From: a virus | Length of the DNA: 20,377 bases | Virus record (IMG/VR): IMGVR_UViG_3300020471_000196 | Span: 1-20,377 of that record | Direction: 5' to 3' (one strand) | In this document: positions 2,871 to 20,377 of the stretch, piece after piece | How the letters are laid out: every line of letters starts with the position of its first letter | Numbering within the stretch: the stretch's first letter is position 1 | Translations under genes and position numbers: made by a program | The notes under the pieces: generated by a model | Database searches by the model: none | What the model was told of the DNA's origin: nothing | The model's input: the letters and a program-made list of their open reading frames with translations, nothing else

Positions 2871-5800
2871 TTATAAGGTTCCGAAATCGAGAGTTAAGTT
2901 TGTACCATCTATAGTACCGATGTTTGATAAGTTGTTGTTTTGACCATCTAAGTTACCGCCTAATTGTGGTGATGTGTCAGCAACTAGATCTGTATTGATA
3001 CTTGATGTACCAGCTGCTGTAAGTCGACCTTGAGCATCTACAGTAAATGTAGCGATAGCTGAGGATGATCCATAACTACCAGCTGTAACTGAGGTGTTTG
3101 CAAGCTTTGCAGCAGTCACATTATCGTCTACAATATTTGCTGTAACTATAGCGTTTGTAGCGATATGCTCTTGAGCAACTGCATCATCAGCTATTGAATT
3201 AGATGTAACTGCATCTTGAGCTATTTTAGCTGTAGTCACAGCCCCACCATTTATTTTAGCTGTAGTCACAGCATCAGTGGCTATATGTGCAGCATCTATT
3301 GACCCATCTACATAGTGTTCAGAGTCTATACTGTTATCAGCTAAATCAGCAATAAGAGTACCTGTTAACGTTGCACCAGTAGAAGTTATCTCTAGCTTTG
3401 TATTTCCACCATCTTGTAATTTAAGATTACCAACACCAGATGCGTTGATTATAGAATCTGATGTATTATGGAATATTTGTAAATCTGAGTCAGCACCGAA
3501 CTTAGCTTTTATATTATCGTTATACTTGTTGTCTCCAGTAAATATAACACCAGAAGTTGTAGCAAAGTTACCAGTAGCTGTAACACCACCTTGCCAAGAA
3601 CTACCATTGTACACCCTTAACTCGTTAGCAGATGTGTTAAAGAACAAGTCTCCTGTATCTAAGCTAGTTGTTGGGTTAGTAGATCCAATACGATATCTAT
3701 TAGCAAAGGTGTTTACATCGGTAATGCTTGATGCAACTGTTGTCACGTTTGAGTTGTTGTTAGCAACTGATGTCACGTCAGACGATATGCCAGCGACTGT
3801 AGTTACGTTTGAACTTATACCAGCAACAGTATTTATGTTTGTAGCATTGCTGACCGCACTGTTAATATTGCTAGCATTGCTGACTGCACTGTTAATATTA
3901 CTTGAGTTGTTTGCAACTGCTGTAACATTAGAGTCATTATTAGCAACAGTAGTGATATTACCAGCAATATCAGCCAACGTATCCATGTCGGTTACGATTG
4001 CTGAAGTGCCTAATGTATTCATATCAGCCACTGCGTCAGCTGTACCTAACCTACCTATCTCTGTTGCTTTAGCAGCTACAGCTCCTATGTCAGTAGCATC
4101 AGCTGCAACAGCAGTAACGTCAGATGCAATACCGGCTACAGTAGTAACATTAGATGATATTCCAGCTACAGTTGTAACGTTAGAATCGTTGTTAGCGACA
4201 GTAGTAATATTACTTGAAATGTCTGCCAACGTATCCATATCAGACACGATAGCTGAGGTAGCTAGTGTATTCATGTCAGCTACAGCATCAGCAGTACCAA
4301 GTAGTGCTAGATCTGCGACTGCATCAGTTGTACCTAATCTACCTATTTCTGTCGCTTTACCAGCAACCGCAGTTACATTAGAGTTGTTTGTAGCTACTGT
4401 TGTTACATTACTAGATATACCAGCAACCGTTGTAATATTGCTTGATATGTCAGCTAGTGTATCCATGTCAGACACAATGGCTGTAGTACCTAGTGTGTTC
4501 ATATCAGCTACAGCATCGGCTGTACCTAGTCTTCCAATCTCTGTGGCTTTACCAGCTACGACTCCTATGTCAGTTGCGTCTGCTGCAACCGCAGTTACAT
4601 CTGATGATATACCAGCGACGGTAGTTACATTACTTGCTATTCCAGCAACTGTTGTTACATTACCACTAATACCTTGTACAGTATTTAAGTTGTTTATATT
4701 ATCAGCTACAGTCTGGATTTTAGTTATATCATCCGAAACTGTTTTGATTGGGTCATCTTTTACTGTAATAGTATTACCCATGCCACTATGGGCTGTGCAA
4801 TAATATATAAAACTTGTTGGCTGTGATTCAGGTACTACAAGTTGTATTTTTGCTCCAGCTTGTCCCTGAGTGCCAGTAACAGTAACACCAGTAGTATAAG
4901 CACTACCACCACTTGAGAAACGGAATGGGTGTGTTGCGTTTGATGCGTCACTTAAATCAAATGTATATGTCCAACCTTTATATAATGTTAGTGCAGGCTT
5001 ATCCACACCATCAATCATAAACTTACCAGTAGCTGCTGTAACAGCAAACGAAATCTCGTCTTCTATAATATCTGCAACTATATCAAGTGATCCGTTAGAA
5101 CTACCTGTACTTACTGGATCTGTTATTAGACCTAAATCTTCACTATATGTTATAGCACCTGAGACAATAGAGATGTCGTCTAGTACTGACTGATTTGGTG
5201 TTACATTAGAAAATGCACTACCTGTATATACCTGTATATTATCATTGCTACTATCATACCATAAGTCACCTTCTGTCAAAGATGAGCCATCATTTCTTTG
5301 TGTAGGCTCACTTGCAGAGATAATATATAAATCAGCAAAGTTATTTATGTCTACTACGTTTGCACCAGCGTTAACAATATTTGTTATATTATTTGCAACT
5401 GTTGTAACTTCTGTAGCTTTAGGTACGAGTCTATGGAAAGTGTATGTATGTAGTGTGCTTGTAGATTCTACCAAGAATCCGAAGCCCGAAGGTATGGTAG
5501 CAGTGACACCAGTTATAGTAATATCAGCATTGTTAGCTACATTAGCATTTTTTATAGTAAGAGTTGTACCACTAAGAGATGATACATTACTATCAGATGG
5601 GTGAGGTAGCTGGGCACTTGCAGCTTTTATACTTAATATAGCTGCTTGTCCTGTTGCCCCTTGTGGGTTCTCGTTAGGAAAATGTTGGTCACTATCTATA
5701 GCTGTAAAACCACCGACATCATCAACAAGGTCAACGATTCGTGCGTTAATAGCAGCAGTTGTAGCCACAAAAGCATCTGAGTTACTCCAAGTCATTCCAC

Positions 5801-18443: not shown

Positions 18444-19592
18444 TTAAGAGAAAGCTGAAGGCTTAGTTCCTGTACCAGCGAATAATTCAACTGATGCAGC
18501 AGGGTTAAGTGCGTCTGCTCCCATTGCTAGGCGACCTAGAATTACGTCACCTTGGTAAACCACGGATATGTCTCCGCTTGTTACCTGTACTTGTGGTCCG
18601 ATTGCTTCAACAACACCAGCGGCTTCCTTCTGGAAGATAAGTCCACATGAGTTCTCGAAGTCAGATGTACCATTACCGTAAGAGTTAACAGTCTTAACAG
18701 CTCCTGTTCCAGCTGTTTCGTCAACCATTTCAACTTCTGTGAAGCTTCCTGTGTTTCCGGGATCTGTTACTCCGGGGTTTGTTGAGGAACCTGTACCGTA
18801 CTTAGTACCAAATCTACCAAAGAATGGAATATTCATTGACTTGTAGATCTTGATTCCAGCAATTTCGATGATGCCATTACCTGACTGTAATGCGTCACCT
18901 TGCTCGTCTCTGTTGATAAGACCGTTAGAACCTACAGCTTGTATAAGTTCGTAGTATTGTCTTGGGTTCAACACAGCAACTCTTCCGTCTGTAGAAACGC
19001 CCTTCTCATCTAGTGCAGCGGCTGCATCATAGAAAGCGTTTACGAGAGCTGTAGAGCTGTAAGCGTCAGATGCGTTTGCAGTTGTACCTACACGAATCTG
19101 TGTACCACCGGGCTCAACAAAGTTGGACTTAGTGATAGGGCTAGCTTGTCTAGCTGCTTTGGTGATTGATCTGAAGATCTTTCTGTCATACTTCTCTGCA
19201 AGAGCATAACCAATCTTCTTGGAAATTTCACCTCTCAAATCATAGTGAGCAAGTGTCTCATCCAATTCATAAACAAACGCAGAACTGATTAATAGGTCGT
19301 CGCATGTTATGGTTTTTTCAGCTACTGGAGGTGCACCGTCACCGTTACCTAGTATGCTGTTGCCGGGTGTATGGTACTCGGCTGTTGTTCTACCTGTGAA
19401 GATGAACTGAAGTGACTTACCGTTTGTAAGTGTTCTTTTCATAACAAGGTCTCTAGCGATTGTATTACGCTGGAAGCCTTTGAACATCTCTCCACTGAAC
19501 AACTTTAAATAAAGTGCTCTGGCGTCGCCTGCACTATTAGATTGACCCGGACGTGTTAGACTTGTAGTCAGGGTACTATTTTGTTGTGCCAT
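18444..19592 (-). CDS. Major capsid protein, T7 gp10-like
   Basis: 382 aa, against 345 in T7 gp10A. The N-terminal part (GDARALYLKLFSGEMFKGFQ, then DLVMKRTLTNGKSLQF and a short TPGN loop) and the central AEKTITCDDLLISSAFVYELDETLAHYDLR are hallmark T7-type capsid features, with an HK97-like fold inferred from the family. The C-terminus (VVYQGDVILGRLAMGADALN) is also typical. The start at 19592 has no Shine-Dalgarno; the 40 nt before it are A/U-rich and probably unstructured, which is unusual for what should be the most expressed gene. A structured leader lies upstream and a strong terminator follows. I see no support for a T7-like -1 frameshifted minor capsid form. Confidence 0.95.
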   Translation of the reverse strand: MAQQNSTLTTSLTRPGQSNSAGDARALYLKLFSGEMFKGFQRNTIARDLVMKRTLTNGKSLQFIFTGRTTAEYHTPGNSILGNGDGAPPVAEKTITCDDLLISSAFVYELDETLAHYDLRGEISKKIGYALAEKYDRKIFRSITKAARQASPITKSNFVEPGGTQIRVGTTANASDAYSSTALVNAFYDAAAALDEKGVSTDGRVAVLNPRQYYELIQAVGSNGLINRDEQGDALQSGNGIIEIAGIKIYKSMNIPFFGRFGTKYGTGSSTNPGVTDPGNTGSFTEVEMVDETAGTGAVKTVNSYGNGTSDFENSCGLIFQKEAAGVVEAIGPQVQVTSGDISVVYQGDVILGRLAMGADALNPAASVELFAGTGTKPSAFS

Positions 19593-19604
19593 TGATATGG
19601 ATTG

Positions 19605-19679
19605 TTAAGGATTGATATTGCTTAGTACTAAATTTTTCTCGAGTTTTTTTTGTGGTCTATCCCACCGTCTAGACGGCAT
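19605..19679 (-). CDS. Possible 24-aa basic micro-ORF before the capsid gene
   Basis: ATG at 19677-19679 to TAA at 19605-19607 encodes a basic peptide starting MPSRRWDRPQKKLEKN and ending NINP. It ends 12 nt before the capsid ATG, an operon-like distance. There is no Shine-Dalgarno, and its first codons fall in a 12-bp palindrome, so it may be only leader sequence. Composition (Trp, many Arg and Lys) looks protein-like, but the length gives little statistical support. If translated, it could feed ribosomes to the capsid start. Confidence 0.3.
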   Translation of the reverse strand: MPSRRWDRPQKKLEKNLVLSNINP

Positions 19680-19741
19680 AAGGTGTCCGGCTTACCGGGC
19701 TTGTGCCAATGGCAGGGGAGTCCGACTCTGAGGTGCTCCCC
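19665..19741 (-). other. GC-rich multi-hairpin leader upstream of the capsid gene
   Basis: In an otherwise AT-rich region this stretch holds, in tandem: GGGGAG...CTCCCC (19715-19741, 15-nt loop), TGCC-ATT-GGCA (19704-19714), CCGG-TAAG-CCGG (19687-19698) and the perfect palindrome CCGTCTAGACGG (19665-19676). No U-run follows any of them on the minus strand, so it is not a standard intrinsic terminator. It has no tRNA fold. Possible roles are an RNA processing or stabilising 5' leader, or a phage RNA polymerase promoter region; position before the capsid gene would suit either. Confidence 0.5.
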
Positions 19742-19747
19742 GGCTGT

Positions 19748-19879
19748 TTAGTAAGAAGGAGTCTCTAGTTGAGCATCTTCTTTCTTTTCTTCAGTTTTGT
19801 TTTCTGGTTCTGGAGTCTCATATGTCTCAGGTTCAAACCTTGTGACTGATGCTCTCATAACCGAGCTTTGATGTGCCAT
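19748..19879 (-). CDS. 43-aa acidic small protein, unknown function
   Basis: It begins MAHQSSVMRASVTRFEPETY and continues with a highly charged tail rich in Glu, Lys, Pro and Thr, ending ETPSY. The first 14 residues could form a short helix and the rest looks disordered. The start overlaps the stop of the preceding 17-codon ORF by one base (TAATG) and lacks its own Shine-Dalgarno, so coupling is likely. I do not recognise the family. Its location between psbA and the capsid gene suggests late, possibly high expression. Confidence 0.6.
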   Translation of the reverse strand: MAHQSSVMRASVTRFEPETYETPEPENKTEEKKEDAQLETPSY

Positions 19880-19932
19880 TACTTAACAAGTTTAGTATAT
19901 GTAACACCACGGTAAACGTAAGTTACTGTCAT
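19879..19932 (-). CDS. 17-aa mini-ORF with strong Shine-Dalgarno (MTVTYVYRGVTYTKLVK)
   Basis: ATG at 19930-19932, TAA at 19879-19881. It has one of the best ribosome sites in the window (GGAGG, 5 nt spacing). Its TAA shares an A with the ATG of the next ORF. The 'TY-x-Y-R-G-V-x-Y' core resembles the start of DUF4278-type small cyanobacterial and cyanophage proteins, which are longer, so this may be a shortened relative or a leader peptide that recruits ribosomes for the next gene. The ribosome site and coupling are seen directly; the family link is a motif-level inference. Confidence 0.55.
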   Translation of the reverse strand: MTVTYVYRGVTYTKLVK

Positions 19933-19935
19933 AGC

Positions 19936-19942
19936 TTCCTCC
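19936..19942 (-). promoter_or_regulatory. Shine-Dalgarno of the 17-aa mini-ORF
   Basis: GGAGGAA precedes the ATG at 19932. The GGAG part also belongs to TCGGAG (19939-19944), which can pair with CTCCGA just after the psbA stop, so access to this site may depend on RNA folding. Confidence 0.65.
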
Positions 19943-20008
19943 GATACCTAGCCCCCGTTCCATGACTAGATGACATGCGTCGCATAAAGCGATGAACGGA
20001 CGTCGGAG
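19939..20008 (-). other. Nested inverted repeats in the spacer after psbA
   Basis: On the minus strand CTCCGA (20003-20008), directly after the psbA stop, is complementary to TCGGAG (19939-19944). Inside it CCGTTC (19994-19999) is complementary to GAACGG (19955-19960). A small TCGC-TTTAT-GCGA hairpin lies further in. The collinear nesting suggests a folded RNA whose outer stem covers the mini-ORF ribosome site. No U-run follows, so it is not an obvious terminator. A promoter could also lie here but none is recognisable. Confidence 0.45.
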
Positions 20009-20377
20009 TTATCCTATTTGTGGTGCTGTAAGTGCTACGTTTGTAGACTCAGCTGATGCTAAGTCAAGTGGGAAGTTGTGAGCATTACGCTCGTGCATTA
20101 CTTCAAAACCAAGGTTGGCTCTGTTTAATACGTCAGCCCATGTTGGAACGACTTTGCCGTTAGCGTCAACGATGGACTGGTTAAAGTTAAAACCATTAAG
20201 GTTGAAAGCCATGGTGCAGATGCCCATTGAGGTGAGCCATATGCCAACCACGGGCCAAGTAGCCAAAAAGAAATGTAAGCTACGAGAATTATTAAAAGAG
20301 GCATATTGGAAAATAAGTCTACCAAAGTAGCCATGTGCAGCTACAATGTTATATGTTTCCTCGTCTTGACCAAACTT
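20009..20377 (-). CDS. psbA: Photosystem II D1 protein, C-terminal third (5' end beyond window)
   Basis: 122 codons read in frame from the window edge ([20 protein letters not shown]) to TAA; they correspond to D1 residues 238-359. D1 is the reaction-centre subunit of photosystem II in the thylakoid membrane; it binds the quinone QB and most of the manganese cluster. Visible functional residues fit standard numbering: His252, Phe255 and Ser264 of the QB pocket, His272 (non-haem iron), and His332, Glu333, His337, Asp342 and Ala344 for the manganese site. Ala344 is followed by a 15-residue tail expected to be removed by CtpA. Phages carry psbA to replace photodamaged host D1 during infection. 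The gene is intact as far as seen, with no intron or homing endonuclease after it. Its 5' end and any hli neighbour lie outside the window. Confidence 0.98.

Follow-up and report, generated by a model that had tools for sequence, protein, structure and literature searches.

A covarying P1/P2 RNA fold ahead of the capsid gene in T7-like phages of abundant marine bacteria

T7-like phages that infect Prochlorococcus, Synechococcus and SAR11 rank with the most common marine viruses. In T7 itself, the phi10 promoter lies 63 bases before gene 10, and RNase III sites serve as processing signals between late genes. In punctuation of the mitochondrial type, tRNAs mark off the units of polycistronic transcripts, and the enzymes that process them are RNase P and RNase Z, the latter of which needs no more than a minimal acceptor/T-arm helix. 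Structure at the 5′ end protects mRNA. Other RNAs of cyanophages include manA, wcaG and PhotoRC-II, named in a survey of 104 RNA motifs (PMC2864571), and Syn5 has only two promoters for its polymerase, with more than 37 kb read from one of them (PMC3950665).

The window analysed here is the whole stretch of DNA, 20,377 bases of a virus record with its genes on the minus strand. It is a fragment of a T7-like marine cyanophage genome; T7-like cyanophages, among them P-SSP6, 9515-10a, P-GSP1 and P-SSP7, are its nearest annotated relatives. A conserved, covarying P1/P2 fold keeps a constant position ahead of the capsid gene, and on its 5′ side stands one of three helical modules that substitute for one another. 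We rate this leader as a new RNA family, of the structured and possibly processed mRNA leader type; among the matches listed, no description of the element was found in the open-access literature at the level of titles and the starts of abstracts. A conserved RNA at the most demanding gene bears on how capsid protein would be made in large excess over other late proteins from two promoter sites.

Gene context and fold of the capsid leader

The sense strand of the leader is the minus strand, and the feature extends over about 19651-19744, more than the earlier note had described. In sense order, the window holds the following parts:

20009-20377, minus strand: 3′ end of psbA (open reading frame), first in sense order
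19946-20001, minus strand: glutamine-II riboswitch RF01704 (Rfam match, 53 bits), after psbA
19879-19932, minus strand: open reading frame for a 17-aa peptide, MTVTYVYRGVTYTKLVK, after the riboswitch
19748-19879, minus strand: 43-aa open reading frame, between the 17-aa peptide and the capsid leader
19712-19744, minus strand: upstream module of class H, GGGGAG/CUCCCC plus GC/GC across a C.U mismatch, with loop CACCUCAGAGUCGGA at 19721-19735 (from the sequence)
19706-19709, minus strand: UUGG junction from upstream module to P1, the proposed new 5′ end (from alignments of relatives)
19675-19707, minus strand: P1/P2 core (matches to the RNA models R1 and R2 described below; covariation)
19700-19707 with 19675-19682, minus strand: P1, GGCACAAG paired with CUUAUGCC, part of the core
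19699, minus strand: C between P1 and P2, a single unpaired base
19687-19698, minus strand: P2 hairpin CCGG-UAAG-CCGG with a YNMG loop, part of the core
19683-19686, minus strand: ACAC at the AYAM position, part of the core
19665-19676, no strand assigned: 12-bp palindrome CCGTCTAGACGG, occurring once in the window
19652-19665, minus strand: H3 hairpin GUGG-GAUAGA-CCAC, whose arms co-vary between loci
19638-19643, no strand assigned: CTCGAG, a 6-bp palindrome, followed by an A-tract on the sense strand
19622-19631, no strand assigned: second perfect palindrome TTAGTACTAA, centred about 35 nt before the capsid ATG
18444-19592, minus strand: major capsid protein gene (open reading frame), served by the leader

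Relatives of the capsid gene carry a capsid or major head protein annotation in many phage records among the matches listed. By eye, the pair formed by the riboswitch and the 17-aa peptide reading frame, between psbA and the capsid leader, recurs in many related leaders. A known riboswitch at the leader itself was rejected, Rfam showing only the glutamine-II riboswitch in the window, away from the feature. A search of 19590-19780 against Rfam 15 gave a single match (E 5.4, far below the cut-off), and at gathering thresholds nothing was found over the Syn5 or HTVC019P leaders.

The earlier note had described a GC-rich, hairpin-bearing capsid leader with neither terminator nor tRNA fold, and G+C content is indeed 63.6% in 19665-19741 against 45% in 19601-19800; an intrinsic terminator search of 19560-20010 found none, and the window holds no tRNA. 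The palindrome CCGTCTAGACGG and the inverted repeats GGGGAG...CTCCCC (19736-19741 with 19715-19720) and CCGG-TAAG-CCGG (19687-19698) lie where it had placed them, and the structured leader that it proposed was borne out by comparison of folds and by conservation among relatives (77 of 80 loci among the matches listed, see below). Its two AGGTG... segments on the plus strand are present (AGGTGTCCGGCT at 19681 and AGGTGCTCCCCGGCT at 19731) but belong to different structural parts, and hence no repeat unit is seen. The letters of its TGCC/GGCA inverted repeat likewise exist, but the hairpin finds no support in relatives, the GG being the start of P1.

From 5′ to 3′, the core comprises P1, C, the P2 hairpin with its YNMG tetraloop, AYAM, P1′, a linker and the H3 hairpin, and 188 of 194 loci parse into this order, with a P1 of 8-9 pairs that usually holds an internal loop mid-helix. 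As the parse requires a paired P2, a YNMG loop and AYAM-like letters, letter frequencies are valid for the parsed loci alone, among which the P2 tetraloop is UACG in 155, UAAG in 25, CACG in 5 and CAAG in 3. The P2 arms come in 15 kinds among these loci, which argues for pairing of P2, although the parse itself demands it. The six unparsed loci comprise three that are cut by contig ends, one with U for C and GUAC for AYAM, and two with a longer P2, and none of the six has an unpaired short P2. In L171 and L193, an insertion enlarges P2, with the flanking C and AYAC retained. The GG of UUGG is invariant in alignments A1 and A2, and UUGA replaces UUGG in a few divergent loci (e.g. L379).

Folded as a single sequence, the window's feature has a z-score of -1.61, with 12 of 200 shuffles folding equally well; single-sequence folding was uninformative and mispairs distant parts, and was therefore replaced by comparative analysis of two alignments, the gapless A2 (27 sequences) and A3 (55 sequences, joining core and Syn5-type leaders). 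When the partner strand was slid by 1-3 columns, a control that preserves relatedness, the share of paired cells fell from 91.1% to 33-54% in A2, and sliding took it from 84.4% to 29-50% in A3, where the covariation score likewise dropped from 0.577 to no more than 0.177. Changes on both sides affected 63 cells in A2 and 159 in A3, against 19.3 and 62.8 in shuffles, which ignore relatedness (0 of 500 as high in either alignment). RNAalifold, run on A2, predicts the identical 13 pairs unprompted, and the outer P1 pair in A3 changes in step (GC 39, CG 13, GU 1, other 2). Further pair types did not rise above shuffles (470 of 500 as high in A2, 458 of 500 in A3), nor did the number of A3 pairs with change on both sides (10 of 12, matched or exceeded in 230 of 500 shuffles). 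In A2, the two middle P1 pairs each lack pairing in 17 of the 27 rows, and most rows thus have an internal loop in P1. Taken as sequence evidence, the compensatory changes support P1 and P2, and the leader combines such changes with restriction to one strand and a fixed gene context, as a conserved cis-acting structured RNA would.

H3 is invariant within A2, which is therefore silent on this hairpin. The computed fold of the window favours GUCUA/UAGAC over H3 (probability of H3 0.32), but H3 is retained because its arms co-change in relatives (GUGG/CCAC, GUGUG/CACAC, GUAGG/CCUAC, GUCUG/CAGAC and GUCG/CGAC between loci). On the RNA, CCGTCTAGACGG spans these helices, with its CC in P1′, its last G in H3 and its middle as the P1/H3 linker. 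Since the CC pairs in P1 and the last G in H3, the conserved unit is the linker between helices, which is palindromic in most relatives, and not the 12-bp palindrome itself. The palindrome was disfavoured as a free-standing hairpin: across 111 unique elements, a few with a wrong GG as their start, its pairs had a mean probability of 0.04-0.06, and the outer P1 pair one of 0.81. S-RIP1 and L402 could form CC(G/A)AA-CCGG-UUUGG at the palindrome, given which a switch between a palindrome hairpin and P1 is possible.

Upstream modules and spread among phages

The module that adjoins UUGG on its 5′ side is a real tRNA, a tRNA-like acceptor/T-arm or a 10-bp hairpin. Among 159 unique leaders, 87 carry the hairpin with loop CACCUCAGAGUCGGA or near it (class H), 63 a T-arm or tRNA (class T) and one neither, with eight too short. 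The spacing to UUGG takes two values in each class. In class H, 66 of 74 leaders have 11 nt between the end of the loop and UUGG, and 8 of 74 have 12 nt; in class T, 47 of 63 have 8 nt between the T-stem and UUGG, and 16 of 63 have 9 nt, with 8 nt being the geometry of seven acceptor bases plus one discriminator. Four T-class leaders are full tRNAs according to ARAGORN (Gly-UCC in three, Leu-AAG in one), and in NATL1A-7 the annotated tRNA-Gly (3479-3549) directly abuts the element (3420-3478) at UUGG. By eye, L122 and L136 look like decayed tRNA-Gly. Acceptor strands are paired in register over at least 5 bases at 20 of 48 testable T-class loci, against 11.7% in a swapped control, the 48 including full or decayed tRNAs whose acceptor lies outside the tested stretch. 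A looser acceptor-stem test, asking for at least 5 of 7 pairs, gave no separation (47 of 59, against about 80% with permuted partners). The class H hairpin of the window lies outside the tRNA-like acceptor/T-arm definition.

On a capsid tree of 142 rows obtained by quick search, 29 changes between H and T are needed, of which 17 are forced by starred branches, a count that may be inflated by seven long branches (L098 above all), by the limits of the quick search and by recombination between leader and capsid gene. Shuffled labels needed a mean of 45.9 changes, with 0 of 500 shuffles as low as 29; the labels are clustered on the tree, and exchanges are therefore frequent, not free. We read the forms of the module as interchangeable, and hence as probably equivalent in role. 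The pelagiphage leaders examined have, by eye, neither module and another hairpin instead.

At least 80 loci in IMG/VR have a related capsid gene, and CCGTC-NN-GACGG lies upstream of it in 77 of 80 among the matches listed, the other three being cut by contig ends; a pattern scan of IMG/VR that left the two middle bases free gave at least 120 stretches. In the gathered loci, the palindrome pattern occurs at 223 places or more (the window counted twice), with the capsid gene next downstream at 190. Among the matches listed, four further places are phage contigs in which the capsid gene is unseen (three of which stop within 100 nt), and bacterial genomes account for another 29 as chance hits; also among the matches listed, 5 of the 34 pattern hits in bacterial genome records are capsid-linked, and are probably phage contigs in bins or infected single cells. 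Some contigs are duplicated (e.g. L003 and L094), and the 111 unique elements are therefore the better count; L016 was excluded by hand because its leader resembles a junction with the riboswitch.

The first RNA model, R1 (57 nt), has the window outside its training set and matches it at 19651-19709 with 70.7 bits. The earlier note had suggested looking for the motif before other late genes. R1 was run on 12 sources, the window plus 11 phage records other than P60, with P-SSP7 covered up to base 41917; nine of them have a single strong match and three none, and every strong match lies directly before the capsid gene. R1 has no match in the records of Syn5 and HTVC019P, and SS120-1 reaches only 9.2 bits, at the capsid leader.

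The second model, R2, covers P1/P2 in 33 nt and was trained on a set that includes the window and a leader identical to that of Syn5, the other reference records themselves being absent from it. R2 matches the window, as a member of its training set, with 43.5 bits, and its best match lies before the capsid gene in all 13 sources searched, 12 of cyanophages (the window included) and HTVC019P, a set that takes in P60 (part), SS120-1 and Syn5; the match in the HTVC019P genome is weak (E 0.16), and the 13 sources give two other weak matches (E 0.65 and 8.5). Pelagiphage HTVC011P has a match of 24.9 bits (E 1.2e-6), with its two outermost P1 pairs non-standard, and T7 has none in 19000-25000. Across 80 HTVC019P-type loci (225,616 bases), which are close relatives of one another, 78 matches were found, weak and near-identical (E 0.012-0.12) and all at the leader; the two loci left over, L319 and L345, have little or no upstream sequence. 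Of 35 Syn5-type leaders, 27 contain a strict motif that is absent from all 350 shuffles, and R2 recovers four of the eight that fail it (L278, L280, L281 and L284 being unmatched at the leader); no HTVC019P-type leader (0 of 39) has the strict motif. R2 is a compact RNA model whose matches point to the capsid gene in the marine phages covered here. These comparisons indicate that a structured RNA directly ahead of the capsid gene is conserved among phages that infect abundant marine bacteria.

Several variants were seen by eye in the more distant leaders. In HTVC019P-type leaders P2 varies in pairs around UGCG, and in L290 and others a P2-like hairpin with a UGCG loop is preceded by another conserved hairpin, GUUGUGCA-...-UGGCAAC, whose inner stem also varies in pairs. 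A divergent group (L373, L437, L387 and L432) has the CACCUCAGAGUCGGA hairpin and a CCAACCGGUUGG-type palindrome that precedes the P1/P2 core instead of following it, with R2 matches in L373, L387 and L437.

Late transcription and the proposed role of the leader

Copies of the Syn5 promoter number exactly two in Syn5, at 4929 and 44797, and none is near the capsid gene at 20017. A promoter-like repeat of 15-20 bases likewise occurs exactly twice in each of eight genomes (Syn5, S-TIP37, S-SBP1, S-CBP1, S-CBP3, NATL1A-7, P-GSP1 and P-SSP7), at these positions:

L232, 4929 and 44797: promoter-like repeat, two copies
L230, 5908 and 44474: promoter-like repeat, two copies
L235, 4139 and 44477: promoter-like repeat, two copies
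L238, 5067 and 44444: promoter-like repeat, two copies
L231, 6916 and 14367: promoter-like repeat, two copies
L236, 19493 and 26080: promoter-like repeat, two copies
L229, 8960 and 14509: promoter-like repeat, two copies
P-SSP7, 6853 (L082) and 43820 (L442): promoter-like repeat, two copies

In all eight genomes, one copy lies in or at the RNA polymerase gene (unannotated at the repeat in S-CBP3, NATL1A-7 and P-GSP1, and placed there from gene order) and the other beside the large terminase gene. The repeats were chosen for Syn5-like placement, and their places are therefore by selection; the missing third copy is not, and none was found within 3 mismatches in seven genomes (4 for P-SSP7), capsid region included. 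The two-copy repeats are likely promoters of each phage's RNA polymerase. The same two places share 21 bases in SS120-1 and 13 bases in S-RIP1, with equal lengths in 6 of 92 and 2 of 88 control windows, respectively. Near the capsid gene, scans that allowed 3 mismatches in seven genomes and 4 in P-SSP7 found neither the Syn5-type promoter ATTGGGCACCCGTAA nor the phage's own two-copy repeat, and in the window a single site comes within 3 mismatches of the Syn5 promoter, at 3606 and on the opposite strand. A capsid gene without a nearby promoter needs control at the level of RNA, and the conserved RNA sits exactly there.

We propose, with a probability of roughly one half, that the leader is a module for processing and protection, carried on very long late transcripts, and consider this model the most economical. 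Late genes would be transcribed as one very long transcript from distant promoter sites, and the upstream module would be a cutting signal, parting the capsid message from psbA and its neighbours by a cut at UUGG or beside it. The tRNA and tRNA-like forms would be cut by RNase P and RNase Z of the host, and the hairpin form of the window either by another host endonuclease or by these two enzymes as well. The folded core at the new 5′ end would then shield the capsid message from 5′-end-dependent decay, capsid mRNA would accumulate, and the leader would act at the RNA level as the phi10 promoter does in T7. In tRNA-bearing phages, a tRNA that is used must be freed, and a cut at UUGG is therefore likely there. 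By analogy, the hairpin form in the window may also be cut; class H is not tRNA-like, and cutting by RNase P or RNase Z is thus least secure for the window. Counting against the processing model, the palindromic linker and the second palindrome are left unexplained by it, and the pelagiphage leaders examined show neither module, by eye.

Alternative readings and comparison with known systems

A possible but less probable reading is that the leader is a cis-regulatory RNA, which would control capsid translation or access to the mRNA without cutting, by binding capsid, scaffold, a host RNA-binding protein or a small molecule. The compact fold, with its invariant unpaired letters (the C after P1a, most of AYAM and the YNMG loop), resembles a binding site, the element lies at the capsid gene only in the sources searched, and the glutamine-II riboswitch lies directly upstream. 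However, neither an expression platform nor a hidden Shine-Dalgarno sequence was noticed by eye, the core of the window ends 58 nt before the capsid ATG, and the fixed spacing of the tRNA-type module from the 5′ edge of the core would go unexplained.

More doubtful is a new kind of device, in which marine Autographiviridae of cyanobacteria and SAR11 would have lost the capsid promoter and one RNA would supply capsid, through a swappable cutter (tRNA, tRNA-like arm or hairpin), a self-active, YNMG-capped two-helix core (ribozyme-like or a new type of decay block) and two self-complementary loops that pair capsid mRNAs with one another.

The spacers between H3 and the ATG contain a perfect palindrome of at least 8 bp in 149 of 151 unique cases, against 32% of shuffles, and of at least 10 bp in 127 of 151, against 11%; in 137 of 151 the centre of this second palindrome falls 31-46 nt ahead of the ATG, and the centres show twelve different four-mers. 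A hairpin acting simply as RNA has no need of a self-complementary loop, and intermolecular pairing or a role as DNA is therefore possible for the second palindrome. Ahead of the capsid ATG of the window, an A-tract separates the TTAGTACTAA and CTCGAG palindromes, and palindromes of 6-8 bp are seen by eye at the CTCGAG position in many relatives.

It is unlikely that the palindromes act as DNA, as sites for a dimeric DNA-binding protein to which the RNA fold would be secondary. At 194 of the 195 core loci the first palindrome has a self-complementary centre, compared with 7 of the 29 chance hits, and the second is perfect to its centre across many different sequences. But the middle dinucleotide is TA at 180 of the core loci (AT at 14, TG at 1), so that the centre is mostly kept, not re-made, and a protein site should preserve letters, which the second palindrome does not. 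Furthermore, P1, P2 and H3 persist where the first palindrome is shortened or broken (CCGTCGACGG in P-GSP1 and CCGTGACGG in S-CBP1, both shortened; CCATGACGG in S-CBP3, broken; and CTGTCTAGACGG in NATL1A-7).

Also improbable is a self-cleaving ribozyme, or a ribozyme-like core, whose cut at UUGG would release the message or, in the tRNA form, the 3′ end of the tRNA. The fixed boundary adjoins a tRNA 3′ end in several phages, and the internal loop letters and the linker are conserved, as this reading would have it; against it, Rfam gave no ribozyme match for the window at gathering thresholds or for 19590-19780 at E up to 10, and an HDV-type double pseudoknot could not be drawn by hand.

Finally, a Syn5-like late phage promoter for the capsid gene is very improbable: T7 phi10 occupies the equivalent place and the earlier note had raised a resemblance in letters to the Syn5 promoter, but the GTAA of the window derives from the UAAG tetraloop of P2, where UACG or CACG stands in 160 of 188 parsed loci, the paired substitutions in the leader are not what promoter recognition would predict, and the two-copy repeats of eight genomes lie at the polymerase gene or its expected place and beside the terminase gene, in line with the two promoters reported for Syn5 (PMC3950665).

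Set beside known systems, the leader shares with the glutamine-II riboswitch that it is a structured phage RNA in the same gene string, but the riboswitch is a separate element about 200 nt upstream with an Rfam family of its own (RF01704). The processing signal that we propose would lie among the late genes of a T7-like phage, as the RNase III sites of T7 do; unlike these, P1/P2 offers about 12 pairs with internal loops, without a long duplex. Like the T7 phi10 promoter and gene 10 leader, the marine leader lies directly before the capsid gene and would raise capsid mRNA, but the T7 signal is a DNA promoter and the marine one a covarying RNA. In contrast to tRNA punctuation, a non-tRNA hairpin takes the place of the mark in the window and in many relatives, the mark is followed by a separate conserved RNA fold, and processing is proposed here; as in tRNA punctuation, a tRNA or tRNA-like fold marks a coding boundary, and the next RNA starts right after the discriminator base.
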